Program-made: the position numbers and the translations under genes
Origin: Parietichytrium sp. I65-24A
Lineage: Eukaryota; Sar; Bigyra; Thraustochytrida; Thraustochytriidae
NCBI GenBank assembly: GCA_012862575.1
Contig: BLSF01000021.1
Coordinates: 62,001 to 126,000, forward strand
DNA length: 64,000 nt
Reading direction: 5' to 3'
Shown: positions 6,046-64,000 of the stretch, piece by piece
How positions within the stretch are numbered: the first letter of the stretch is position 1
Layout of the letters: each line of letters begins with the position of its first letter
Notes under the pieces: generated by a model
The model's input: only the letters and a program-made list of their open reading frames with translations
What the model was told of the DNA's origin: nothing
Database searches by the model: none

Positions 6046-7624
6046 TTATGCGCTTCCTTGGGAGGCCTGCTTCTTCAACTTCTTCAAAGCAGCTCTGTCA
6101 GGGAGAGCCAAAATCTGCTCGACATTCTCACTAACTTTTTTATCTGTCTGGTAGGCGCTGAGGTCGACAGGGAGACCGCAAATCTTAGCCTGGCCTCCTT
6201 TGTTGAGAAAGACGGTGAACTTAACGTGAGCAACTTTTTCTCCACTCTTCTCCACAAGAACTGGGTATGGCACAAAAAGATCGTGCTTAAGGCACTCGGT
6301 GCAACCCATGCGAGCCTGCTTCTCGTCATCAATGTGGCGGAGGGAGAATGGGAATGTGGAAAACTTCTTGCTTGCTTCGTTGAACAAGTACCGGGATGCC
6401 TTCATCTTCAAGCGGTAACCCTGGTCCACAGAGCGCTTAAAGACGGTGGTGCGAGCGTCGCGCTGGATTGGCTTGCCCTCACCAGTAGAGAAGACAACGT
6501 CTACAGTGTATGCATTACCAGCTTCAAACTCGAAGGTGTCCACCTTCTGGTCAACCTCCTCGCGCTGGATGACAACATTGTTTCCGTCAATGACGAATCT
6601 GTGTGTAGCACAAAAAAAAACAGAAAAACAATCATGCGTCAGTAAAAGTATCTGTCAGATAAACAGGCTGTGGTCTGTGTGGCAGGCTTTTGAGGGTCGA
6701 GCTCTAAACCTTTTCTTCTCGTATACACAATCAAGAGTGGCAGAGATCGTAGGATTCTGTATGGGGAGCAAGCCTCGCAAGCTGACATTGCACACGCCCG
6801 CAACCCTATGGGTCGCAGGGGCACTGCAGCAAGAATAAAGGAATTCACCCAATTTTCTATTTGCTTCCAAAAAGCCTCGCACGCGCACTCTTAAACATCC
6901 AGCACGGCAAGGGGCAAAGGAAGCAACGAAAGAAGAAACAACGGGTGCACAACGCCAGCCCTATGCTCATCCTTTCAAAGCTCGAAAGGCAAGGCCTGGC
7001 CTGCCAGCAGACACTACTCGAAAGAAAACATCACAAAACGTACCTTTTCATCTGGTGCATCAAAACTCCCTGAACTGGGGTCACGCCGAAAGTATTGGCA
7101 ACCTCCTTAATAGCCGCGGTCACGTCTGAGTTCTTCTTGCCTGCGCTCATCAGCTTGTATGCAGCCTCAGCAGCGGTGTAGGCAGCGCAAACGAGGTCGG
7201 CATCGCGGCCAGTAACTGGGGCTGGGTTTTCTCCCTGCACGACGAAGGTGTGGGCCAAAACAGCGGCAAAGCCGTCGATGTGCACGCCAAGATCGACTTT
7301 CACAATATCTCCGGCCTGAAGGACGTGGACATCGGCGTCAGAGGACAGAGGGCTACAATGGCAGACGACCTCGTTGACGCTCACGCAGGTTGGGAAGGCA
7401 ATACCCTTCTCAATCTTCTTGGTCTTGTATGCGTTGGCACACTGTTGGGTGATGAGCGCATCACCAAACACGCACAGGTCCAAGGTTTTCTTGCCGACCG
7501 CTGCAAACTTGAGCATACCAGTCATAGTCTTGTTCGCGATCTCTCCGGCGACGGAGGTCTTGGCCATCACCTCCTCCTCGCTCACCTCCACCTCGCCCAC
7601 GCTCTCCATCTCCACGTCAGACAT
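6046..7624 (-). CDS. PA2G4: EBP1/PA2G4, methionine-aminopeptidase-fold protein (2 exons)
   Basis: Coding exons are 7624-7044 and 6598-6046, spliced over a 445-bp intron (donor AAAAG|GTACG, acceptor CACACAG|ATTCG). The join HQMKR-FVIDGNNVVIQ matches the HQLKQHVIDG region of human EBP1, and the total of 1134 bp gives 377 residues. The fold is the MetAP2-like pita-bread (VDLGVHIDGFAAVLAHTFVV; ARMGCTECLKHDLFVPYPVL), and EBP1 proteins have lost peptidase activity. Known roles are binding at the ribosomal exit tunnel and growth control. The ATG at 7624 is followed by MSDVEMESVGEV; an upstream GTG is not needed. Coding-strand GA tracts (7637-7675, 7700-7727) sit just upstream. It ends in KKLKKQASQGSA and lacks the long Lys tail of animal forms. 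Confidence 0.9.
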
Positions 7625-8479
7625 CTTTCCCACCTATCTCTCTCTCTCTCTCTTCTCTCTTCTCTCCTCTCTCGGACTCTCACACGTGTACGCGACCACG
7701 CTCTCTCTCTCTCTCTCTCTCTCTCTTTGGTCTCCGCTGTGCTCTCCTTCTCTCCACTCTTTCTCTCCTTTCCTTGTCATTCTCCGTTCTCGCTACGTTC
7801 TCCATAGTCCCCTTCCTAGACGAGCTACGCTGGGCTACTGGATCCATCTAGGCCCCCTCAGTTACGCAGCGCGCTACTGGACGTGCTGGGATGGAAGTCC
7901 AGTAGCGAAGGAGTAAGGTGGGTAGCTAGTGGTAGGCGATGGGGGTAGCGTTGGGAGTAGATTGGAGGTAGGGCTCGGTGAGTGGGGAAGGATGAATGGA
8001 TGTGCGAGGAGGAAAGATTGGGCTGGTAGGGAAGTATTAGTGTATTTACTAGGAGATGGAGGTCGTGAGCAACGAGTTGTTCCCTGGATGGTTGGTTGGG
8101 TTGTGGGAATAACTCCTTGTTCGAGAAGGAATTCGTTGATCATGAACCACACGGTCTGATTCAATTGGAAACAGGGAAACTATCCCCTATCGATTTGTTG
8201 TTTTTAGAAATCTCGCGAAGCAATTCTGGCATCCGGGTTTTCTTCGTTGTTCAGGTCTTTTACGGTTGGTTCTCACTGAAGCGGTCGGGACCACGCCCCT
8301 TATCTTGAACGTTTGCAAGGTTTCACATGACTCAATCTGCCATATCCCAAAGCTTTAAGCCGGAGAAGAGGGCGATCGATCGTGAGATAGGAAAGGAGGA
8401 AGGCTATGATTAATTAATTGTTTCAAAAATATTTTCCAGAGTATCATATACATGGGCAAGTCAATTTACGCCACCGGAG
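7625..8479. other. Intergenic region between EBP1 and CCDC28-like gene
   Basis: Besides the GA tracts it holds a perfect 10-bp inverted repeat (7872-7881 with 7898-7907, CGCTACTGGA, 16-nt loop); a third copy of GCTACTGGA lies near 7830. No gene is seen. The more AT-rich part near 8400 is probably the 3' UTR of the CCDC28-like gene. Confidence 0.5.
7637..7727 (-). repeat. GA-dinucleotide tracts upstream of EBP1
   Basis: Two CT runs on the + strand, hence GA on the EBP1 coding strand, 13-100 bp upstream of its ATG. They are probably in the 5' UTR or core promoter. Confidence 0.85.
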
Positions 8480-15495: not shown

Positions 15496-15744
15496 AGTCA
15501 GTCAGTCAGTACCAGTGCATGTGTACTCTACGTCTGGGCTATTCCGTGTTGTATTCATTGTTGTATTCATTGTTGTTGTTTTTGCTGTTTTAGTTTTGTT
15601 ATGTTTTGTTTCATGAACAATTGTTGATCAAAAAGGACGGTACTCGAGTACCGGTACAGACAGTGTGTCAGGGTGGTGGCGCGACGCTCGGGTGATAACG
15701 CCGGCTGGCAAGGGGATTGCTTTCGTGGCAGAAACGCTGGTAGG

Positions 15745-16833
15745 ATGGAGGGGACGGTGGGGCTGGCGGCGAGGCGCGCGGGGAGCGAGTGGGTGAAACT
15801 GCTGTTATTGACTTTGGTGGTGAAAGTGACGCGGTTCAGCTTGGAGTGGTGGTCCATGGAGCGCGTGCTGGCGGAGCTGTGGAGAGAGCGCGCGGAGTGG
15901 AAGATACCGCCGATGAGGTGCGGCGCGAAGAGCAGAACGATGGTGGCGCTCCCTATTTTGGGAGTGGACGCGGCGACAATGAGCACGGAGAGCAAGGTGA
16001 GGGCGATAAGCGTAGTGAGCCAGCTGGCGCGGAGCAAATTGCCCGCGTTGGCGGTGCCCGGGGCCTCCAGCGGGGGAAAGCTTGACAGGATGCTGGCAAA
16101 CCTGGAAAATGCTCTGAGTACGTGCCATTCTCTCAAAGACCAGTACGAGTTGTGCATAATTATGCAAGACGATACTGTCTTGCACCCGAACATCAAAGAG
16201 GAGCTATTGTGCTCGTTGGAAAAGCTTCCGCAAGACTGGACCATGTTCCATATGTGCCCCGGCGCCACGTGGGGTCGAGCGTCTCGCGACGCCTCCAAGC
16301 ACTTTAGACTCAACCCGGAGTTCCCCCTCCGCCATCCTGGCGCGGACGTATCCGGAAGGTACTTTACCATATGGCCGGACTCCAAAGTGTTCCCTGGCGG
16401 ACCAGTTGCATTCGCCATGAAAAGCTCATCGGCTGAGTCCATTTTAAACGTCTTTCGAAGTATGCATAAGAACGCCCTGACCACAGACGACACGATTCTT
16501 GCCGCAATGAAAGTTCATGGCGGGTACACAAGCTACCAGCCGCAGCTCTGCTACGAGGCGGTGTTCTCTGGAAGCTATTTTGAGAAGAATTGGATCATTG
16601 AATTTGTAATTTATGACCTTGGCATCGCCTTTGCAATCTTGACGTTAGCGTTTCTCCTTCGACAGCACCTGCGCGCGAGATTCCTCCCGCAAGGGCAATG
16701 GGAAACGACTGTGGATGGACATTACTCAAGACCCAGCGGTTCTGCGCGAAGGCTTGCAACCATACACGAACGCCACAATCCTGATCTTGACTATTTCAAT
16801 ACCTCAAATCTGCGCTCGCTGGCCACAAGCTGA
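15745..16833 (+). CDS. Glycosyltransferase-like membrane protein, paralogue A
   Basis: A 362-residue protein, homologous throughout to the next gene. An N-terminal hydrophobic segment (about residues 17-30) could anchor it. The core is CIIMQDDTVLHPNI (acidic QDD at 141-143), LPQDWTMFHMCPGATWG, RYFTIWP, PGGPVAFAMK, TDDTILAAM and QPQLCYEAVFSG. The acidic pair before a hydrophobic-HP run and the DW.M.H pattern recall GT-A enzymes of the GT25 type (EDDV.FHP...LP.DWD). A second hydrophobic segment near residues 284-305 (IEFVIYDLGIAFAILTLAFLL) precedes a basic tail. First in-frame ATG is at 15745. A Golgi or ER glycosyltransferase is the best guess; donor and acceptor are unknown. Confidence 0.7.
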   Translation: MEGTVGLAARRAGSEWVKLLLLTLVVKVTRFSLEWWSMERVLAELWRERAEWKIPPMRCGAKSRTMVALPILGVDAATMSTESKVRAISVVSQLARSKLPALAVPGASSGGKLDRMLANLENALSTCHSLKDQYELCIIMQDDTVLHPNIKEELLCSLEKLPQDWTMFHMCPGATWGRASRDASKHFRLNPEFPLRHPGADVSGRYFTIWPDSKVFPGGPVAFAMKSSSAESILNVFRSMHKNALTTDDTILAAMKVHGGYTSYQPQLCYEAVFSGSYFEKNWIIEFVIYDLGIAFAILTLAFLLRQHLRARFLPQGQWETTVDGHYSRPSGSARRLATIHERHNPDLDYFNTSNLRSLATS

Positions 16834-17293
16834 TTGTCATCACTGTAGGTTTCGAGTTCTGTTTTGTCGCAACCCGTCATAACTTCGCTCGTTTTAGAAA
16901 GTAATCAAATGTACAAGCCGCCGGACCTTGGCAACGCTTGATCCCACTTCTGTGCATAGTCAACTTAAATGATGATCCCAGCACTTCCTTCGGATGTCTC
17001 GTCTCTTGTAATTTGACAGTTTCGAGGCACGACTACACAAGCCACTACGGTACTCAGTATATACACCAGGCTGGCACATACTCGGAGAGCGATGTTCCAG
17101 CGGCGTGTTTCAAGTATGGACCACATACATACCCTGAGCGTCTCTTAAACGCGGATTGTTCTCGTCAGATTTGGCATCTCCGCGCCGCTGTGGCTCGCGG
17201 GCGGGAGGGGGTACGTCCCGCTGAGTGCGCGTTACCGGAGCGCGGAGTAACGCGCGCGGTTGTCTGGTAAAGTTCTCCGTACGGTGTGCAAGG
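16834..17293. other. Spacer between glycosyltransferase paralogues
   Basis: 460 bp between same-strand paralogues. It probably contains the 3' UTR of A and the promoter of B. No repeat or gene seen. Confidence 0.4.
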
Positions 17294-18307
17294 ATGTTCA
17301 GTGAAGAATTCGACCGCTGCCGCTTCGCCCTGGACAAAGTTTCGAGGCATGGTTGCCATGTTGTGATTCTTACTTTGCTCATGTTTGTTTGCATCAAGCT
17401 GTTGTTCTTCGAGGCCAACTGGGCATTATTGGACTGGTATTTGTTTGATATACAGAATGAGAGGAAACAGGCCTTTCTCACAGGATGTCGTCGAGACGGT
17501 TTTGCATCGAGCGTGGAAGCCTTTGCGATCGTGATGACCCAGCCCGGCCTTCAGACACAGGTCACGCAGGCTAGGCTCATTCACACAGCCAGCCAATTTG
17601 CAGCTCTGGGATTGCCAGTCCAATTCGTCGCTGGAGTGCAGGATAAATCCAAGTATCGGTCAACTAAATTAGCACTGATAGATGCGCTTCAGTCGTGCCA
17701 CGCCTCTGTTTTGATGCCAGAGCACTGCTTGATTACACAGGATGATGCCGTGTTCCACCCGCGGCTGCTCTCTGAAGCACAATGCACCATCGATGAGATG
17801 CCAGACGACTGGAGAATGCTTCACCTTTGCCCTCGGACATCATGGGGAAAGGAATTTAATCGAGTCGACATGAGATTCCACTTCAACCCAGAGTTCGACC
17901 ACGGCGAAGATGAAGGTGTGAGATACTTCAAACGATGGCCAGCAGACCGTGAGCGAAGGCCGATTCCAGGAGGGCCATTGGCATTTTTTATCAAACGTGA
18001 TCGTTGTCCCGAGATCATCGAGCGTCTCCGGGTTGACTTGGACAAGAAATATAACGACGACATTGTGCTACAGCTCTTTCACATGGACGACTACATCACA
18101 AAGGAGCCTCAGCTATGCTACGAGAATCAATTCACAGGAACCACCTATACTAAAGGGATCCCGCTGAATTTCAAATTCTTCTTCTATGCCGCGGCCTCGA
18201 GTATTGCTTTGCTTCTGGGATTTTTCTTTTGGTATACAAATGAGATCACTGACCTCCATGCCTACTTTTTCCGGCCAACATACCAGCGCTTGGCCAGCGA
18301 GGAATGA
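17294..18307 (+). CDS. Glycosyltransferase-like membrane protein, paralogue B
   Basis: A 337-residue tandem paralogue of the preceding gene. A clear signal anchor covers residues 21-39 (CHVVILTLLMFVCIKLLFF). The shared core reads CLITQDDAVFHPRL (QDD 149-151), MPDDWRMLHLCPRTSWG, FHFNPEF, RYFKRWP, PGGPLAFFIK, DDYI and EPQLCYENQFTG. An upstream block EAFAIVMTQPG and SQFAALGLPVQFVAG also aligns with paralogue A (SQLARSKLPALAVPG). A second membrane segment at 294-314 (FKFFFYAAASSIALLLGFFFW) is followed by a short tail, so the catalytic-like core lies between two membrane segments, as in A. First in-frame ATG is at 17294. GT25-like activity is inferred. Confidence 0.72.
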   Translation: MFSEEFDRCRFALDKVSRHGCHVVILTLLMFVCIKLLFFEANWALLDWYLFDIQNERKQAFLTGCRRDGFASSVEAFAIVMTQPGLQTQVTQARLIHTASQFAALGLPVQFVAGVQDKSKYRSTKLALIDALQSCHASVLMPEHCLITQDDAVFHPRLLSEAQCTIDEMPDDWRMLHLCPRTSWGKEFNRVDMRFHFNPEFDHGEDEGVRYFKRWPADRERRPIPGGPLAFFIKRDRCPEIIERLRVDLDKKYNDDIVLQLFHMDDYITKEPQLCYENQFTGTTYTKGIPLNFKFFFYAAASSIALLLGFFFWYTNEITDLHAYFFRPTYQRLASEE

Positions 18308-20200: not shown

Positions 20201-20211
20201 ACGAGTAGTGT

Positions 20212-20844
20212 NNNNNNNNNNNNNNNNNNNNNNNNNNNNNNNNNNNNNNNNNNNNNNNNNNNNNNNNNNNNNNNNNNNNNNNNNNNNNNNNNNNNNNNNN
20301 NNNNNNNNNNNNNNNNNNNNNNNNNNNNNNNNNNNNNNNNNNNNNNNNNNNNNNNNNNNNNNNNNNNNNNNNNNNNNNNNNNNNNNNNNNNNNNNNNNNN
20401 NNNNNNNNNNNNNNNNNNNNNNNNNNNNNNNNNNNNNNNNNNNNNNNNNNNNNNNNNNNNNNNNNNNNNNNNNNNNNNNNNNNNNNNNNNNNNNNNNNNN
20501 NNNNNNNNNNNNNNNNNNNNNNNNNNNNNNNNNNNNNNNNNNNNNNNNNNNNNNNNNNNNNNNNNNNNNNNNNNNNNNNNNNNNNNNNNNNNNNNNNNNN
20601 NNNNNNNNNNNNNNNNNNNNNNNNNNNNNNNNNNNNNNNNNNNNNNNNNNNNNNNNNNNNNNNNNNNNNNNNNNNNNNNNNNNNNNNNNNNNNNNNNNNN
20701 NNNNNNNNNNNNNNNNNNNNNNNNNNNNNNNNNNNNNNNNNNNNNNNNNNNNNNNNNNNNNNNNNNNNNNNNNNNNNNNNNNNNNNNNNNNNNNNNNNNN
20801 NNNNNNNNNNNNNNNNNNNNNNNNNNNNNNNNNNNNNNNNNNNN
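20212..20844. other. Assembly gap (633 N)
   Basis: A run of N. Flanking direct repeats suggest the gap reflects unresolved repetitive sequence. Confidence 1.
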
Positions 20845-20877
20845 TTCCCGCTTGCAGTTCAACTATTTTTTTATTCT

Positions 20878-25974: not shown

Positions 25975-26609
25975 ACTGATTTGTTTTCCTTCTTTACTTT
26001 TACTCTCTCTTTTTGTACACACGCTTGACCCTTGCACGTTTTTCCCACAGGCATCCGGACCACGCCGTGCCTCCATCCCTCCCTCCCTTCCTCGCTAGCA
26101 ATACATACCACAAGGCCCGCCTTTTCTCCTCGCGCTTGGCCTGTTCTACCGTTCGCCCGCCTTCGATCTACGCACTTACGCACTTCATCTGGATTGCTCT
26201 TAGCAACCTGGGGTTGAGTCGGGTCCGCTTTTGCGCAGATTTCATAACGTGCAACTCTCCTCGCTCGCTTCTCGCTTCTTGCGGTGATTCGAGAGCAGCG
26301 CCGCAGCGCACAAGTGCAGGCGCAACCGACGCAGCCAGCGCCTGAACAGGAAGAGCGCCAAGGCGCTTTCCAGCGATATTTCCGCGCGACAAAGATTTGG
26401 GGCGGCGTGTGGGCTTGGCTTCGGGTAGGAAGAAGGCGCTTGTGCCCGGACTGTCCGAGTCCGCTTGCTTACGGTGCGGGTCGATTGGCGTGATTGGCGT
26501 GATCGGCGTGATTGGCGTAGCGCAGAGAGGGCCGGGTCGGGGCAGATCTCAGGAAACTGATACCACCAGGCAAGTGAGGGCCGCGAAGGGAGTGGAGACG
26601 CTGAGAGCG
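25975..26609. other. Spacer between WASP-like and OTU genes
   Basis: 635 bp on the same strand. It includes an ATTGGCGTG-type 9/10-bp tandem repeat (about 26485-26521) about 90 bp upstream of the OTU start. No gene seen. Confidence 0.45.
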
Positions 26610-27674
26610 ATGGGAAACACCTCGAATAGCGTGCTCTCGGGCGCAGAGCAGGAGAGATCCGCAAGGCTGTTTCGGAGCCTGGTGGAAGAGCTCGGGTGCT
26701 CGGAGCAGGAAGCCATCACATATATTGAAAAGTTTGGCCTGGACGAGGGGAAGATCGTCAAGCAGGTCGCGCTGGACGTGCTGCCTGACCGTCAGCGAAG
26801 GAAATGGTCGCACTATTTCGACAAAGCGGCGTACCTGCAGCACACCAAAGTCCTCATCCACAACTACCGTACGCAAAGCGCGGAGAGTGAAACCACGCGG
26901 GAGCCCACCCCGCACGCCCCAGTGGCACCGCGGCGCCTGGAGAGAGAGGCGTACAACGCGTCGGTCCTGAGCACACTGTCTTCCTGCACCATCACGCCAT
27001 GGAACCCCACGCTGATTCGCAGCATCGCCAAGCTCAAACGCAGCGCAGCGCAGGCGAGGGGCCGTTTGGGCGCAGAAGGAACCGGGGATGGATCCGCGCT
27101 CGAGCAAGCGGGCGCCTCGGCGCAGTCCCCTCGCACGGCAGCCGAGACGAACCTGCTGCAGCAGCGTCTCGCCAACTTTCGTCTCCGCGAGGTGGTGATG
27201 AAGGGCGACGGCAACTGCCAGTTCCGATCGCTAAGCCACGAGCTCTTCGGCTCTGCCGAGCACCACCACCACGTGAGGACCAAGGCCGTGGCGCACATAC
27301 GCTCCCACGCCGCCGACTTCCAGCCCTTCTTCGAGTCCGCCCACGACATGGCCAGCTACACCGCCACCATGAGCGCGCCGGGCACCTGGGGCGACGAGCT
27401 CACTCTCAAGGCCTCGGCCGAGGCCTTCGGGCTCACCGTCCACGTGCTCACGTCCACCGCGGGCTTCGGCGGGTACCTGCTCGAGTACGTCCCCGCGCAC
27501 TCGGCTCACTCGGCACACTCGGCCGCGCAGCAACCAGAGGACTCGCGCACCGGCAGCCACGCCTTCCTCACGTACCTGAGCCCCATTCACTACAACGTCA
27601 TGACCCTTCGCGAGGACCCCCGCCGCGAGCGCCTCTCTGCCGACGCCGCCGCCCTCCTCCGCCGATCCCTCTAG
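26610..27674 (+). CDS. OTU-family deubiquitinase, N-myristoylated
   Basis: A 354-residue predicted cysteine protease that cleaves ubiquitin chains. The OTU core begins at about residue 190: VVMKGDGNCQFRSLSHELF gives Asp200 and catalytic Cys203 (DGNC.FRS), HHHVRTKAVAHI and GTWGDELTLKASAEAFG are the conserved middle blocks, and SPIHYNVM supplies catalytic His327. All expected residues are present, so it should be active. The N-terminus MGNTSNS fits an N-myristoylation site (Gly2, Ser6). Residues 17-60 are helical (FRSLVEELGCSEQEAITYIE) and could be a UBA-like bundle. The upstream frame is open without ATG, so 26610 is the start. It lies between two signalling genes on the same strand. Confidence 0.9.
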   Translation: MGNTSNSVLSGAEQERSARLFRSLVEELGCSEQEAITYIEKFGLDEGKIVKQVALDVLPDRQRRKWSHYFDKAAYLQHTKVLIHNYRTQSAESETTREPTPHAPVAPRRLEREAYNASVLSTLSSCTITPWNPTLIRSIAKLKRSAAQARGRLGAEGTGDGSALEQAGASAQSPRTAAETNLLQQRLANFRLREVVMKGDGNCQFRSLSHELFGSAEHHHHVRTKAVAHIRSHAADFQPFFESAHDMASYTATMSAPGTWGDELTLKASAEAFGLTVHVLTSTAGFGGYLLEYVPAHSAHSAHSAAQQPEDSRTGSHAFLTYLSPIHYNVMTLREDPRRERLSADAAALLRRSL

Positions 27675-28146
27675 TCCAACCAGTCCCCATTTCCCGCTTT
27701 CCCGCTTTCCCCCAGATCCCAGCTTCCAGCTTCCAGATCCCCAGCTTGCTCGCTTCCTTGTCGCTCAACGCTGCTGCTTCCTTGCCCGCGGCGCCCCTGC
27801 GCTCGTGCGCGGAACCAGCGGAACCAGCGGAACCAGCGGAACCAGCGGAACGCAAGTGGGCCGCCGGGATTCGGACGCAGACGTCCGCCCGCGGTTCTCT
27901 GGTTCTCTCGTTCCCCACGGAGACGCCGCGGACGCACGCGGACGTACACGGTACACGGTACACGGAGACGCACACGGAGGCGGGGCCAGGGCGTACGCGG
28001 CGGGGACTTGTAGCGAGCCCAGAGACGAGAGCGAGAGTGTGTGTGTGAGGGCGAGTGAGCTGTGAGCTGGGGAGGTGCGCGCAAGTGGCGCAGAGAGGGG
28101 AGAGCACGGGAGGCCAGGGAGGCCAGGGAGGGTGTCCCCGCCGGGC
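27675..28146. other. Spacer with 9-bp tandem repeat
   Basis: 472 bp. It contains four and a half copies of GGAACCAGC (27811-27851), a CGGTACACGGTACACGG repeat near 27949-27966 and GC-rich, CG-dense sequence. It is probably the promoter and 5' UTR of the next gene. Confidence 0.5.
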
Positions 28147-30552
28147 ATGGGTTTCGTGGGCGCGCTGTTCGCGTCGCCGCTGCCGGGGACAGGGCCGGGG
28201 TCCGCGGGGCGCAGCGGGGCAACTGGGCTCGGCGTGGGCAGTGGGCGCGGCGCGGGCGGGTGGGACAGCGGGGACGGGCGCGTGTCGCGGGGCGCGCTGG
28301 CCGTGGAGACGGACCGGAGCAGCTTCCCGCGCGGACGGTGTGGCGTACGGTACCGGGAGGAGCTGGTGGCGGTCCGCGAAGGGCTGCGCGGGACAGGCGT
28401 GCAGGTGGAAGCGCTGGCTGGAACGACGGGCAATCTGCTCCGCGTGGTGAGCCCTGGCGGGCGCGGGGGCGCGGCGCTGGTGCACTTTATTGGCAGCGGC
28501 GTGGAAGCGGGCGGGCTGCTGCTGGAGACGGATAAAGGGTTTGAGCACCCGCTGCGAGCGGATAGCCTGCCCAAGTCGGACGTGAGGGCCCCGTGCGTGT
28601 TCCTGAGCACACATGGGGTGCCGTTCTCGCAGGAGGCCGCGGAGACATTCATGGCGCTCGGGGCGCCGATGGTCGTGCACATGCGCTCGCCGAATTTCGA
28701 CTTTGTCAGGGCTTTCTACGCAGCCCTGGCGAAGGAAGGCGAGGTGCTGGCGGCCCTCGCAGCAGCGCAGGCGGGATTCGGGGAAGATGACCTAGATCTG
28801 CGTGTGCACGCTGCTGAAGAAGGCGCGCCAATTGCGGTGGACCTCACGGACGAGACCATGATCCGGTCGCTCAAAAGCATGGAGGAGCTCAACGCCAGGG
28901 TCAACTTGGCCCCCGATCCGCCGCAGTACGAGGGCCGACTTAGCGAGCTGCGCCAGTTGTGCTCGGTGTTCGTTGGCGACGAGAGACGGAAGGCCGTGCT
29001 CACCGGGGTGCAAGGCAGCGGCAAGTCATCCTTGGCCTTTCACGCCGCACAATTCGCATTCGAGAGGGGCATCGTCCGGAAGGTATGCTTTGTAGACTGC
29101 AGGGCTGTGGAGAAACCTGCACTCCGGTCGCTGACCTGCGTCGAAGGGAGCCACCTATCTAGGGCCAGCGCGGAGGTGGCGCGCAATGTGTTGTGGCTCT
29201 GCAAGCTGATTGCGGAACTCTTCCACCACGAGAGCGACATCGTCAGCCTTCTCGTTCATGATCTGCGATCGCCGAGGGCCGTTGATGCCAATGACTCTGA
29301 CCAGGACGCGTTGCTAGAGCAGCTCGCGAAACAAGCCGTGATCGAAAATCGGACCAGCGAGCTGATTCAGCGCATCGCTCTTGTCGTGCAAGGAGCGATC
29401 GGCTCGCACGACAAGACCCTCATCATCTTTGACAACTGCGAAGGACCTTCACTTTCCAATCCGTACTTTAAAGACCTACTCTTACTGGTCATGGATCGCC
29501 TCAGAGCAAATCTTCTATGCTGCTCGACCCATTTGTTGCCCTTCGATGACTGCGAGTCCATACTTCATATTCGTCTTGAGGGCCTTAACGCTAGGGACGC
29601 CGTGATGATACTCGAGTCCAACGCAGAAATAGACCCCCCAAGAAACGTTCATGAGCTTGTGGAGCGCTTGCAGGCCAAAGAGCTCTGCCTGCCTTCCTGT
29701 CTACGGGAATGCGCCCGCGCTCTGGCACAGCTACCTCCAGGCGAGGACTGTAACGTACACTCGCTCATCGAGGAGGCAAAAAAGTCAGTGAAAGAGCGTG
29801 TTTTTCGCGATTTAAAGTATTTGTTGGAGCTGACCAACTCGGAGAAGAATGCACAGCCTGGAGTGGAACTTTGGAAAGCATGTGTAAAACGGTCTCCTAG
29901 AACGCCAACGCCGACCCATGTCGATTACACATCTTTCAAAGAACTCCTCAAGCTCTCCTTTGCTCAGTCCCTAGCCCCTGGTGTGAAAGAGCGCCCGCTT
30001 AGCTCACAAACAATCGATTCTATGTGTGCCAGATTAACGCGCATATCGCCACTTGCCCCTGAATGCCCGCACCTTGTCTCCATGTCGCGCTTTGCTGTCC
30101 GATTCTGGCCATGGTGGAACGACATAATATCCCTGCTTCAGCTTCTCGGTAAGGAGACTACGCCAGGGGATCGCACGTTGTGGGCCAAGCGAGTTACTGG
30201 TAACCTCCCTGTCATTTGGATTGACAGCCGGGGAGCAGCTGCAGATAGACTCGCTGGTCAGGAGCCCGGGGTGTTCACCCTGCGCTTCAGCGAGAGTTGT
30301 CGCAAAGCAATGGCCGTTGAATATGTTAGTAAAGAGCGGGAAATCTGCTCTTACCTCATAACTTATCGTGGTGGCTCGGTTCACGCTGGTACCCGTGTGT
30401 ATAACTCCGTCAGGGACGCTCTCATGGGGGACCAGAACCTCAAAAAGATCTTTGCCACAAACGCAAATGTCTCGAAGGAACATGTACTCCTTGCTGCCTC
30501 CGTTTCATCACCTCCTGTGCCTCCATCACCTCCCGCGCTTTCGCCCCGTTAG
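28147..30552 (+). CDS. Pseudo-CHAT / STAND ATPase / STAT-like linker-SH2 protein
   Basis: An 801-residue protein with three modules. Residues about 65-215 follow the CHAT (caspase-like) layout: ALVHFIGSGVE at the HFAGHG position, APCVFLSTHG at the NACxTG position, then FMALGAPMVVHM and VRAFYAALAKEGEVLAALAAA. The catalytic His and Cys are replaced (HFIGSG; LSTHG), so it looks inactive. Residues 270-540 form a STAND/NB-ARC-like NTPase: Walker A GVQGSGKSSL (288-297), Walker B TLIIFDN (424-430), NLLCCSTHL sensor-like strand, and LCLPSCLRECARAL at the GLPL position. Residues 650-780 resemble the STAT linker and SH2: FWPWWNDIISLL, then PGVFTLRFSES with the phosphotyrosine-binding Arg713. No tyrosine follows the SH2. 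First ATG is 28147; the frame is open from 28075 without ATG. I know of no named protein with this order. A ligand-gated, phosphotyrosine-reading switch is inferred. Confidence 0.85.
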   Translation: MGFVGALFASPLPGTGPGSAGRSGATGLGVGSGRGAGGWDSGDGRVSRGALAVETDRSSFPRGRCGVRYREELVAVREGLRGTGVQVEALAGTTGNLLRVVSPGGRGGAALVHFIGSGVEAGGLLLETDKGFEHPLRADSLPKSDVRAPCVFLSTHGVPFSQEAAETFMALGAPMVVHMRSPNFDFVRAFYAALAKEGEVLAALAAAQAGFGEDDLDLRVHAAEEGAPIAVDLTDETMIRSLKSMEELNARVNLAPDPPQYEGRLSELRQLCSVFVGDERRKAVLTGVQGSGKSSLAFHAAQFAFERGIVRKVCFVDCRAVEKPALRSLTCVEGSHLSRASAEVARNVLWLCKLIAELFHHESDIVSLLVHDLRSPRAVDANDSDQDALLEQLAKQAVIENRTSELIQRIALVVQGAIGSHDKTLIIFDNCEGPSLSNPYFKDLLLLVMDRLRANLLCCSTHLLPFDDCESILHIRLEGLNARDAVMILESNAEIDPPRNVHELVERLQAKELCLPSCLRECARALAQLPPGEDCNVHSLIEEAKKSVKERVFRDLKYLLELTNSEKNAQPGVELWKACVKRSPRTPTPTHVDYTSFKELLKLSFAQSLAPGVKERPLSSQTIDSMCARLTRISPLAPECPHLVSMSRFAVRFWPWWNDIISLLQLLGKETTPGDRTLWAKRVTGNLPVIWIDSRGAAADRLAGQEPGVFTLRFSESCRKAMAVEYVSKEREICSYLITYRGGSVHAGTRVYNSVRDALMGDQNLKKIFATNANVSKEHVLLAASVSSPPVPPSPPALSPR

Positions 30553-32972: not shown

Positions 32973-34877
32973 ATGGGGTGCTGCTCGAGCCAGGACGCGG
33001 GCAGCACAGTGGGAGACAAGGCGGTGGCGGAGCGTTTCACGTTTGAAGCCGCGGCGCCGGCCCCTCACGCGGAGCAGCAGGAGACGCAGGAGAGGCAGCA
33101 GAGGCAGCAGAGCGTGAAAGGCAACGCAGATGCGACGCAAGGAGGTGCGGGCGTGAAGGAGTCGAGCGTCAAGCTGGCAGAGAAAGCGGAGGCGCAGGCG
33201 AGTGCGGCATCGGAGACTGGGGCGGCTGTTGCGAAGAAAGGAGCAGCGGACGCGGAGGAGGGACCTCCGCAGACGCAGACGCAGACGCGAGAAAGGTCCA
33301 ACTCGGGGTCAAGCACTGGATCAGCACGTGGGCCGACAAAGGAAATTGTGTCGACCAAGAATGGAGCAACGCATCACAGGTACAAGATCATAAAACAATT
33401 GGGCCGCGGGTCATACTCAAGGGTATACTTGGCCACAAACGAATTTGGCGAGCAAGTTGCAGTTAAAGTTGTATACAAGAAGCGGCTCAAGCCATCAGAG
33501 CTTCAGAACATGCACCGCGAAACTGCCATCCTTGCTTCTATCGACCACCCTCACGTCATCCACTATGTCGAGCACTTTGAAGACTCGCACCGTTTATACA
33601 TCGTCACGGAGTACCTTGCCGGGGGGGAATTGTTTGAGAAAATTGTGGAGCGAGAGTACTTTAATGAGCAGGATGTGCGGACCGTGATGAAGGTGTTGTT
33701 AGACACGATACAGTATTGCCATGAACGCAATATTGTGCATCGAGACATCAAGCCAGAGAACATTCTCCTCACTTCCAAGTCGGACAACGCCGAGCTCAAG
33801 CTTGCAGATTTTGGCTTTGCGAAAAAGGTCGACTTTGAGTCCTACACGATGCTCCAAACGGCCTGTGGAACCCCGGGATATGTTGCCCCGGAGATCTTGA
33901 GCAACGACTCTTACGACTACCGTGTCGATATCTGGTCCTTGGGTGTGGTGGCTTATATATTGTTGTGCGGATACCCCCCGTTTCGCAAGCCTGACCGCAA
34001 GGCTTTATTCAAGCAGATCCGTAGCGCCGACTATGTCTTTGATAGCCCATGGTGGGACCCGGTTAGTGACACGGCCAAAGACTTTGTCAGCCAAATGCTG
34101 AAGGCAAAGCCTGAAGAACGCAGCACGATCCCAGATCTTCTCAAGCATGACTTCTTGACGGATAAGGTCGACCGCGATATCTCTCCTATGCTTGCGGAGC
34201 TCAAGGAGTGGAACGGTAAACGAAAAGTCTCGCTGTTGCGAAACACGTGGAAGGCTGCTTTGCGCTTCAAGATTTTAGGATCGAGCCGCAAAATCGCACA
34301 AGAAGCTGCTGCCAGCAGCGAGGCTGAGCAATCAGAGAGCCAGGAGGTTAAGACGCCCGTTAGCGCCGATTCTGCAGATGACCAATCTGTTGGTGGGCAG
34401 GATGTGGCGGAGAATGGCTCGGATTCACCCAATCATCGCGGAACCGTTGGTGGCGCCCTGGATCCCATGGCAGAAGACGCAGAAGGAGAAAAAATCGCTG
34501 AGCAGCAAGAGGAGGCACCGGCAAGGCCGCTAGTCGGTGAACAGCTGACCACTGGTTCGAGCATGAACGGCAGTGCGAGTAGCAGTAAAAAGGGGCCGTC
34601 CTTGGCTGACCTGCTTACCCCAAACCGCCCATCGTCGTTGTCCGGCGGTGCCGAGGGAAGCGGAACAAGGGAAAATTTAGTACTAGCGAAGTCCGACCTC
34701 ACCAACCAATCGGGCACTTCTGGTTACCACTCGTTCAGTTCTGGCAGTAGGAAAGAGGGGGGAGCTGCCGACGACGGGGAACATACTGACAATGAAACGG
34801 ATGGCGAACAATCGGAGCCATCACCACGGTCTGCAAGCGCAGATAATGCCGCAGGAATGGCGGTGAGCCAGCAGTAA
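32973..34877 (+). CDS. Lipid-anchored CAMK-type Ser/Thr protein kinase
   Basis: A 634-residue kinase. The N-terminus MGCCSS is a strong myristoylation plus palmitoylation signal. A 125-residue low-complexity linker leads to the kinase domain (about 137-395): Gly loop LGRGSYSRVYLA, VAVK (Lys165), Glu in HRETAIL, HRDIKPEN (Asp258), DFGF (279-281), GTPGYVAPE and DIWSLGVVAYILLCGYPPF. All catalytic residues are present. The sequence around the activation loop and YPPF places it in the CAMK group near CaMKI/CDPK. No EF hands follow, and the 240-residue tail is Ser/Glu-rich, so calcium control, if any, would be indirect. After the kinase core, RNTWKAALRFKILGSSRK is a basic amphipathic stretch that could be an autoinhibitory or calmodulin-binding helix. 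Confidence 0.92.
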   Translation: MGCCSSQDAGSTVGDKAVAERFTFEAAAPAPHAEQQETQERQQRQQSVKGNADATQGGAGVKESSVKLAEKAEAQASAASETGAAVAKKGAADAEEGPPQTQTQTRERSNSGSSTGSARGPTKEIVSTKNGATHHRYKIIKQLGRGSYSRVYLATNEFGEQVAVKVVYKKRLKPSELQNMHRETAILASIDHPHVIHYVEHFEDSHRLYIVTEYLAGGELFEKIVEREYFNEQDVRTVMKVLLDTIQYCHERNIVHRDIKPENILLTSKSDNAELKLADFGFAKKVDFESYTMLQTACGTPGYVAPEILSNDSYDYRVDIWSLGVVAYILLCGYPPFRKPDRKALFKQIRSADYVFDSPWWDPVSDTAKDFVSQMLKAKPEERSTIPDLLKHDFLTDKVDRDISPMLAELKEWNGKRKVSLLRNTWKAALRFKILGSSRKIAQEAAASSEAEQSESQEVKTPVSADSADDQSVGGQDVAENGSDSPNHRGTVGGALDPMAEDAEGEKIAEQQEEAPARPLVGEQLTTGSSMNGSASSSKKGPSLADLLTPNRPSSLSGGAEGSGTRENLVLAKSDLTNQSGTSGYHSFSSGSRKEGGAADDGEHTDNETDGEQSEPSPRSASADNAAGMAVSQQ

Positions 34878-61953: not shown

Positions 61954-62560
61954 TCAAACATCAGCATCGTGCAGGGTTCGCCGTTTCCAAACTTTCTCAT
62001 CCCTTCGGTGCGAAAACTTTTAGAAAACAGACCGGAAGACGTAGGCTTAATATCTATGCTTTTGCAATAACCATGTCAAACACCAGCATGTCAAACACCA
62101 GCATCGTGCAGGGTTTGCTGTTTCCAAACTTTCTCATCCCTTCGGTTCGAAAACTTTTTAGAAAACAGAGCAGAAGTCGTAGTATTATTATCTATACCTT
62201 TCCAATAGCCATCTCAAAACACCAGCATCGTGCAGGGTTCGCTGTTTCCAAACTTTCTCATCCCTTCGGTTCGAAAACTTTTTAGAAAACAGAGCGGAAG
62301 TCGTAGGCTTACTATATATGCTTTTGCAATAACCATGTCAAACACCAGCATCGTGCAGGGTTTGCTGTTTCCAAACTTTCTCATCCCTTCGGTTCGAAAA
62401 CTTTTTAGAAAACAGACCGGAAGACGTTGGCTTAATATCTATGCTTTTACAATAGCCATGTCAAACACCAGCATCGTGCAGGGTTCGCCGTTTCCAAACT
62501 TTCTCATCCCTATGGTTCGAAAACTTTTTTCAGAATTCAGTATGCAGGGTTTGCCGTTTC
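61954..62560 (+). repeat. 123-bp minisatellite, five copies
   Basis: Tandem units start at 61954, 62091, 62214, 62338 and 62461, spaced 122-124 bp, each beginning TCAAACACCAGCATCGTGCA and containing TTTCCAAACTTTCTCATCCC and CGAAAACTTTTTAGAAAACAG. A 15-bp partial duplication precedes the second unit, and the last unit is truncated and followed by a second TTTCCAAACC. It lies directly upstream of the membrane-protein gene. The period is 41 codons, so one frame stays open. Confidence 0.92.
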
Positions 62561-62665
62561 CAAACCAAGTGGACGCAACTGGGATCAATTGGGACTTGGA
62601 ACCCAGTCCCCGTGCGAGCCGAGTTGCTGATAAATTGACAGTGAATACACTGGAGCGGCAGAGGA

Positions 62666-64000
62666 ATGCATCTGGACGACGGACTGGCGCGCAGCTCGGA
62701 GATTCCGACGTCCGCAGAGAACGCGCACTCTGGAGAGACGCATCTGGGCGACGGAACGGCGCGCAGCTCAGAGACACCGTTGTACGCAGAGAACGTGCGC
62801 TCTGGAGAGAATGATTTGGAGGCAGAGACGGGAAAGCCGTGGTATCGAAGCGCGATGGAGTGGGTGGACTGGGTCTTCGTTCAAGCGCCAGTTCAAAAGC
62901 AGGGCCGCGAGTACGAACGAGCATTCCCTTTAGAACACAGGTACTGGACGAGCAAAGAGAGTCAAGATCCTTTGTGGGCGATAGAGCCTGACAAATGGCA
63001 ACTGTGGACTGGCGGAGCGTCGCTCTCACTTCGCGAGAGGAGGTCAGGATTGCTCTCGTTCTTGATCTACAGTCACTATCTCTTGATCGCCTTCACGTAC
63101 TACGCCGTTGTATTCCAAGTCGTGTTTCGCGAGCTCGATAGCAAACTCGCGGAGATCGACTCGAGCGGGTCGCTGTCGAGCATCCTCTCCACCTTGATCC
63201 TGATAGCTGCCTTCCTCTTCGCAGGAATACTGTGCCTCCCTTGTTTTATCGTCAACAACGTTCGGGCGACGCCATTGGCTGGCGCACTCTCTCTAACATA
63301 CTACTTGTTGGTACTTTGCTTCATTCCTATTTTCTCTCTTTGGCAGTTGGAGCTGGGGCAGTATATCGGGGGATATAAACTTGCCATCACAGTTATTTCT
63401 GCCATCTATTCGGTCTGCGTTCTTGTACTCGGAATCTACCACACTGGCATCAGCGTACTCCGTCCCCGTCATACTTTCTACGTGAATAGGCAACGGGCGT
63501 GCAGACTTTACACCAAGATACAACTTTGGCGCCTACTTGGTCAAGGCTCGCTGCGAGCTCAACTCTCGGCGCCAGCAGACTCGCTCCTCCGCACGAATGA
63601 GAAGTCCTTGCACAAAAATACCTGGGCTGTCAACACCCAGCCGACAGCACTGCAGTTGATTAGAAAGGCGTGGTTTCCAGCTACGCAAGTGCTCCAGGAT
63701 TTAGACCCAATATTTGTTGCTCACGACTCGATTTTGGCGGCGATGAGTTTTGGAGTTGTGATGCTCGCGTTCATTGCTATACAGATACCATTCGTGGCAA
63801 ACACCGCGTACGATAGCATTGGAAATCTTCTCGATGGGTTTCAACAAGTGAAGGATTCGCTACCCTCGAATGCCAACAGTAGCGCCGTAGCCGTTGGTGG
63901 AAACGTGTCCGAATTTGTAGCTGCAAACATCAAATTTTGGCAAGAGGTCCAGCTCCCGCTTTATCAATCCATCCTCATTGGCGGCTACATGGCACTTGCC
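62666..64000 (+). CDS. Polytopic membrane protein, 3' partial
   Basis: The frame runs 445 codons to the end of the window without a stop. The ATG at 62666 is the first in frame (a TGA lies at 62642); an alternative is MEWVDWV at 62855. Between them a 24-residue unit is duplicated (HLDDGLARSSEIPTSAENAH / HLGDGTARSSETPLYAENVR). Hydrophobic segments follow: LLSFLIYSHYLLIAFTYYAV, LSTLILIAAFLFAGILCLPC, LSLTYYLLVLCFIPIFSL, LAITVISAIYSVCVLVLGIY and AAMSFGVVMLAFIAIQIPFV, plus the start of another. Asn-linked sites (NNVR is cytosolic-like; NSSA and NVSE after segment five) suggest that loop is lumenal. I do not recognise the family. The context offers no clue beyond the upstream minisatellite. Confidence 0.75.
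   Translation, partial: MHLDDGLARSSEIPTSAENAHSGETHLGDGTARSSETPLYAENVRSGENDLEAETGKPWYRSAMEWVDWVFVQAPVQKQGREYERAFPLEHRYWTSKESQDPLWAIEPDKWQLWTGGASLSLRERRSGLLSFLIYSHYLLIAFTYYAVVFQVVFRELDSKLAEIDSSGSLSSILSTLILIAAFLFAGILCLPCFIVNNVRATPLAGALSLTYYLLVLCFIPIFSLWQLELGQYIGGYKLAITVISAIYSVCVLVLGIYHTGISVLRPRHTFYVNRQRACRLYTKIQLWRLLGQGSLRAQLSAPADSLLRTNEKSLHKNTWAVNTQPTALQLIRKAWFPATQVLQDLDPIFVAHDSILAAMSFGVVMLAFIAIQIPFVANTAYDSIGNLLDGFQQVKDSLPSNANSSAVAVGGNVSEFVAANIKFWQEVQLPLYQSILIGGYMALA
62668..62811 (+). repeat. In-frame 72-bp tandem duplication
   Basis: Copies 62668-62739 and 62740-62811 share GCATCTGG.CGACGGA and GCGCGCAGCTC.GAGA. The period of 24 codons keeps the membrane-protein frame open. Confidence 0.88.

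Follow-up and report, generated by a model that had tools for sequence, protein, structure and literature searches.

NLR/STAND switches are exemplified by APAF1, plant NLRs and bacterial antiviral STAND proteins, and their known C-termini are LRR, WD40, TPR or lectin-like domains. In STATs, the linker-SH2 unit participates in dimerisation. Metazoan STATs and Dictyostelium STATa carry a W-rich linker followed by an SH2 domain with the LRFSES motif. According to PMC10907252, NLR/STAND switches are composed of an N-terminal effector-like domain, a central STAND NTPase and a variable C-terminus; in characterised antiviral STAND proteins and likewise in NLRs, sensing is the task of the C-terminus and the N-terminus is the acting part. 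For bacterial MoxR-vWA conflict systems, caspase domains were described that occupy the effector position and are inactive; they make up about 70% of the caspase domains fused to the vWA component (PMC7159879). PMC8195603 names SH2 as one of the adaptor domains found at the C-terminus of NCOA6-clade TRADD-N proteins, and STAT family proteins were reported from Acanthamoeba and Physarum (PMC4053784 and PMC4758236). No CHAT or STAND module joined to a STAT-type SH2 domain was encountered in the literature searched, which comprised partially accessible texts and had most subscription papers outside it. The domain combination of CHAT, STAND and STAT-type SH2 is likely new.

The ORF at 28147-30552 (+) of the window (the whole stretch of 64,000 nucleotides analysed here) resembles NLR/STAND switches in the order of an N-terminal effector-like domain, a central STAND-type NTPase and a variable C-terminus, but differs from them by a probable STAT-type SH2 at the C-terminus and a putative pseudo-protease at the N-terminus. 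With STATs it appears to share a W-rich linker placed before an SH2-like segment with LRFSES; unlike STATs, it has no Pfam STAT match and no tail tyrosine, and carries STAND- and CHAT-like regions instead.

The ORF encodes 801 amino acids plus stop in one uninterrupted frame of 801 codons and is a real gene. Its frame stays open from 28066 to 30549; at the local base composition, 828 open codons in a row have a chance of about 8e-13. For coding analysis, nine ORFs of the window with Pfam support served to train a codon model; a tenth was excluded because of stops. Among the six frames, that of the ORF had the highest score in 25 of 27 coding windows (starts 28066 to 30406) and was exceeded by another frame in the two windows starting at 29956 and 30046. 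Scores were clearly negative over the first ~60 codons, and were also negative in windows starting at 29866-30046 and in the last window (start 30406), so that coding potential was weak across residues ~570-690 and at both ends. GC3 dropped from 0.81 in the CHAT region to 0.53-0.55 at the C-terminus. Given these negative scores, the gene model is least certain in the connector and at its two ends. The Gly/Arg-rich N-terminal extension (residues ~1-45, 28147..28280; like all following features of the ORF on the + strand) had a negative coding score and could lie in part outside the translated region or be part of a different gene model; M1 is the sole methionine ahead of M169. The weakly scoring connector (residues 559-648, 29821..30090) contains one stretch that aligns with the STAT1/STAT3 region preceding the W-rich linker. 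All motifs named in the preliminary description were recovered within this single ORF: HFIGSG (residues 113-118), LSTHG (153-157), GVQGSGKSS (287-295), LIIFDN (425-430), FWPWWNDI (653-660) and GVFTLRFSES (708-717).

Residues ~48-218 (28288..28800) were assigned to a putative pseudo-CHAT (caspase-like) domain. Pfam CHAT (PF12770) matched residues 71-211 of the whole protein under its cut-off (E 0.011), and a trimmed piece reached E 2e-4 (21.3 bits; cut-off 24). For our own CHAT profiles, 24 family matches were collected from four cyanobacterial plasmids, and 22 of them were translated (L012 and L030 were excluded); 14 rows entered a short and 6 rows a long profile, L028 and L029 being used in neither. 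The short profile scored the ORF at 17.4 bits, with maxima of 3.9 bits in 2,500 shuffles and 5.7 bits in a second shuffled set. Three of its rows (L015, L016 and L026) stem from places indicated by tblastn with the query itself. Upon their removal the score was about halved (9.2 bits versus at most 5.6 in shuffles), with the ORF at 9.1 bits versus 3.6 for the runner-up among 685 window ORFs; when the weak row L003 was omitted as well, 7.6 versus 5.2 bits were obtained. The profile of six long CHATs missed the ORF. The tblastn search of plasmids with the CHAT segment returned 13 records at E up to 10 (best E ~1). In the three records checked (Nostoc C057, Calothrix NIES-4105 and Nostoc HK-01) the matches fell inside Pfam CHAT matches; the two best-placed records were from Cupriavidus and had no annotation beneath the match.

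In the alignment to the 14 short bacterial CHATs, the catalytic His column is occupied by His in 13 and by Gln in one, whereas the ORF has Ser117 (28495..28497). The catalytic Cys column holds Cys in all 14, and the ORF has no Cys there (H156/P159) and a three-residue insertion around H156. Since both catalytic residues are missing in the alignment, membership in the family would at most be that of a pseudo-CHAT. The assignment, which rests equally on Pfam and on our own profile, is held with moderate confidence. The proposed CHAT-like N-terminus with both catalytic positions replaced was thus moderately supported by the sub-threshold Pfam match, the short profile, S117 and the absent Cys, but not by the long-CHAT profile, and the score fell without the query-selected rows. 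The Gln in the His column belongs to an Allocoleopsis plasmid ORF (L003:604-2091, +) with a trypsin-like domain and a weak CHAT match. In bacteria, CHAT proteins that also carry TIR and AAA-type modules combine a CHAT fold with a P-loop ATPase module, as the ORF probably does; in a Nostoc HK-01 plasmid ORF (L020:1417-3408, +), CHAT, TIR and AAA_35 are present in a single chain. No SH2 was listed for the eight ORFs scanned at bacterial CHAT loci (some clipped at the ends of the stretches), in contrast to the probable STAT-type SH2 of the ORF described here.

For the central module (residues ~249-558, 28891..29820), Pfam AAA_16 matched residues 263-432 with E 1.2e-4 (23 bits; cut-off 32.6). DAP3, NPHP3_N and NACHT matched weakly (NACHT E 0.19), and NCBIfam and PADLOC yielded weak P-loop matches only. 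The Walker A motif GVQGSGKSS (residues 287-295, 29005..29031) is intact, and the Walker B-like LIIFDN (residues 425-430, 29419..29436) ends in FDN without a second acidic residue. By eye, a sensor-1 Arg was not seen, CSTH replacing TTR. LCLPSC (residues 513-518, 29683..29700), also found by eye, resembles the GxP motif known from the winged-helix part of STAND proteins, with CLP for GxP. In a PDB search with the STAND part, five of eight matches were UvrA. The module is best named STAND-like, and judged by sequence both the CHAT and the STAND assignments appear moderately secure. The STAND NTPase of the preliminary description accordingly stood at family level (AAA_16, Walker A and B), but below the Pfam cut-off and with no sensor-1 Arg seen by eye.

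The C-terminal region comprises the STAT-like W-rich linker FWPWWNDIISLL (residues ~649-690, 30091..30216), defined by alignment to STATs, and the probable STAT-type SH2 (residues ~691-787, 30217..30507), identified by STAT profiles, PDB matches and hhalign. It is followed by a short Pro/Ser tail (30508..30549); the last tyrosine of the protein is Tyr752, hence no tail tyrosine follows the SH2. No Pfam STAT or SH2 match was obtained with the whole protein or with C-terminal pieces of 260, 180, 137 and 100 aa. Pfam SH2 (PF00017) appeared with a single 97-aa piece (E 0.14, 12.7 bits versus a cut-off of 21), and its score was equalled by DUF792, an unrelated Borrelia family (E 0.11 in the 97-aa piece, E 0.03 in the 100-aa piece). 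Ahead of the linker, no Pfam STAT model (coiled coil or DNA-binding domain) matched, and this region matches AAA_16 and CHAT. A PDB search with the 180 C-terminal residues gave 14 matches at E up to 10, eight STATs and six others, with ARL15 on top (E 0.33). With a 48-residue core, all nine matches were SH2 proteins (seven STAT1 sequences, a Crk-like protein and Dictyostelium STATa); seven being one protein, three different proteins were matched. The best E of the core search was 0.28, and no match was significant singly in either search.

With a linker-SH2 profile of four human STATs the ORF obtained 17.8 bits, while shuffles did not exceed 4.5, and a profile rebuilt with STAT5B gave 15.1 bits against at most 3.8 and placed the ORF at the top of the 1,353 ORFs taken from window and loci (15.0 versus 3.4 bits for the next), values which stem from a chosen comparison and would be modest if corrected for all families and ORFs possibly tried. 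The SH2 half alone reached 11.6 bits versus at most 4.1 in shuffles, and the linker half alone failed to beat shuffles; FWPWWNDI aligns with the STAT linker and adds to the score only when anchored to the SH2. By hhalign against STAT, an equally chosen comparison, the C-terminus obtained 90% and the whole protein 82%, with 32% identity over 69 columns; a single control, the adjoining OTU protein, obtained 0.1%. R713 aligns with the Arg of STAT LLRFS (the beta-B Arg of the phosphotyrosine pocket) and R695 with the Lys of ISK, so that both fall on STAT basic positions, which would fit a working phosphotyrosine pocket. AlphaFold without alignment gave unusable models (pLDDT 32 for residues 600-787, 45 for 688-787). 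Foldseek with the 688-787 model (pLDDT 45) returned 620 matches at E up to 10; no match reached E <= 0.001, and the best 50 included no SH2. The STAT-type SH2 claimed beforehand is therefore retained as probable on the strength of the STAT profiles, the PDB core and hhalign, but did not reach Pfam thresholds and gained nothing from structure prediction and fold search; the claimed W-rich linker aligned at the right place before the SH2, but was not significant alone.

Together, a single protein with pseudo-CHAT, STAND-type switch and STAT-type SH2, acting as a phosphotyrosine-triggered NLR-like switch, is a tentative reading to which we give slightly less than an even chance. The three modules would follow the usual STAND/NLR order, with a CHAT fold without protease dyad, a STAND-type ATPase switch and a STAT-type linker-SH2. 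As the SH2 would occupy the sensor position of NLRs, the switch would probably be triggered by a tyrosine-phosphorylated protein. Once phosphotyrosine docks in the R713/R695 pocket, the ATPase would be released and may then oligomerise, thereby clustering the pseudo-CHAT domains. The clustered domains would serve as scaffold, adaptor or decoy, not as protease, and could be linked to defence or cell death; the part in immunity or self-recognition put forward in the preliminary description would be conjectural. The inactive caspase domains of NTP-dependent conflict systems provide a precedent for the pseudo-CHAT reading (PMC7159879). Taken to its full extent, i.e. a eukaryotic NLR-type switch in which a STAT-type SH2 reads tyrosine phosphorylation and a dead caspase-like domain is the output, the protein would be a hybrid of a JAK-STAT reader and an NLR/apoptosome, which we consider speculative and somewhat unlikely. 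If true, sensing in a STAND switch would be carried out by a phosphotyrosine reader, which would join two systems usually kept apart, and STAT-type linker-SH2 domains would range wider. The ORF would offer a testable case of a pseudo-caspase retained as non-enzymatic output of an NLR-like protein.

Several alternatives were weighed against the phosphotyrosine-triggered switch. A CHAT-STAND protein whose C-terminal region is unrelated and whose LRFSES resembles STAT by chance would agree with the lack of a thresholded Pfam SH2/STAT match, the equal score of DUF792 in trimmed pieces, the non-significant linker alone and AlphaFold models without an SH2 fold. Such a coincidence is nevertheless judged unlikely, as all nine core PDB matches were SH2 proteins from three different proteins, the ORF led the 1,353 ORFs by 11.6 bits, and the W-rich linker was aligned in the right place with both basic pocket positions retained. 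The SH2 might alternatively be the output, forming dimers or docking on phosphorylated partners, with the ATPase or CHAT region as sensor. Two points are in line with this arrangement: the role of linker-SH2 in STAT dimerisation, and the variable module order in the bacterial stretches scanned, where CHAT precedes AAA_35 in the L020 ORF and comes after it in the L019 ORF. On the other hand, with no tyrosine past 752 there is no tail site for STAT-like reciprocal pTyr-SH2 dimerisation, and sensing falls to the C-terminus in NLRs and in those antiviral STAND proteins that have been characterised (PMC10907252). An SH2 output is hence regarded as doubtful, and the C-terminal SH2 as sensor of the switch is preferred.

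A wrong gene model would have its N- or C-terminal part derived from another transcript, or contain an intron of a length divisible by three. This is held to be very improbable in view of the 828 codons without stop and the same frame being best in 25 of 27 windows, despite the negative coding score over the first ~60 codons and in windows 29866-30046, the fall of GC3 from 0.81 to 0.53-0.55 and, by eye, a split M24 gene in the window. The latter, an M24 peptidase-like gene at 6049-7633 (-), apparently lies in two pieces, of which just the first has a Pfam M24 match; this suggests introns in this genome (by eye).

For relatives of the protein, six eight-residue patterns from the one sequence, which reach near relatives only, confirmed none in viral or genome contigs, and a phage search with E values up to 1 yielded no relative. 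In plasmids, the only match was a weak one of 76 residues at the P-loop in four Sinorhizobium records (E 0.04); the one record inspected encodes a cyclase-AAA_16-TPR protein. On this Sinorhizobium plasmid no CHAT family match was obtained, and no SH2 match in a search that was silent in controls too. As no homologue was found in the collections searched, the architecture is described from one sequence; these collections being viral and prokaryotic by description, they say little on its spread among eukaryotes.

The window is eukaryotic by content, with UNC-50, Utp13, RIO1 and OTU genes among others, and a protist origin is plausible. Directly upstream of the ORF and on the same strand, an OTU-type deubiquitinase gene is located at 26397-27671 (+; Pfam OTU E 9e-16). 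A functional link between the two genes was considered and dropped, as nothing supported it. Downstream, at 32973-34874 (+), a protein kinase gene was found, the product of which starts with MGCCSS, by eye a possible N-terminus for lipid modification. Two adjoining ORFs at 15628-18304 (+) look by eye like two divergent versions of the same membrane protein, which may be a glycosyltransferase; neither had a Pfam match. A run of N at ~20209-20850 represents an assembly gap or a masked stretch. Near the end of the window, at 62209-62811 (+), a repeated peptide stretch (NTSIVQG...PNFLIPSVRKLF) is encoded in an open frame.
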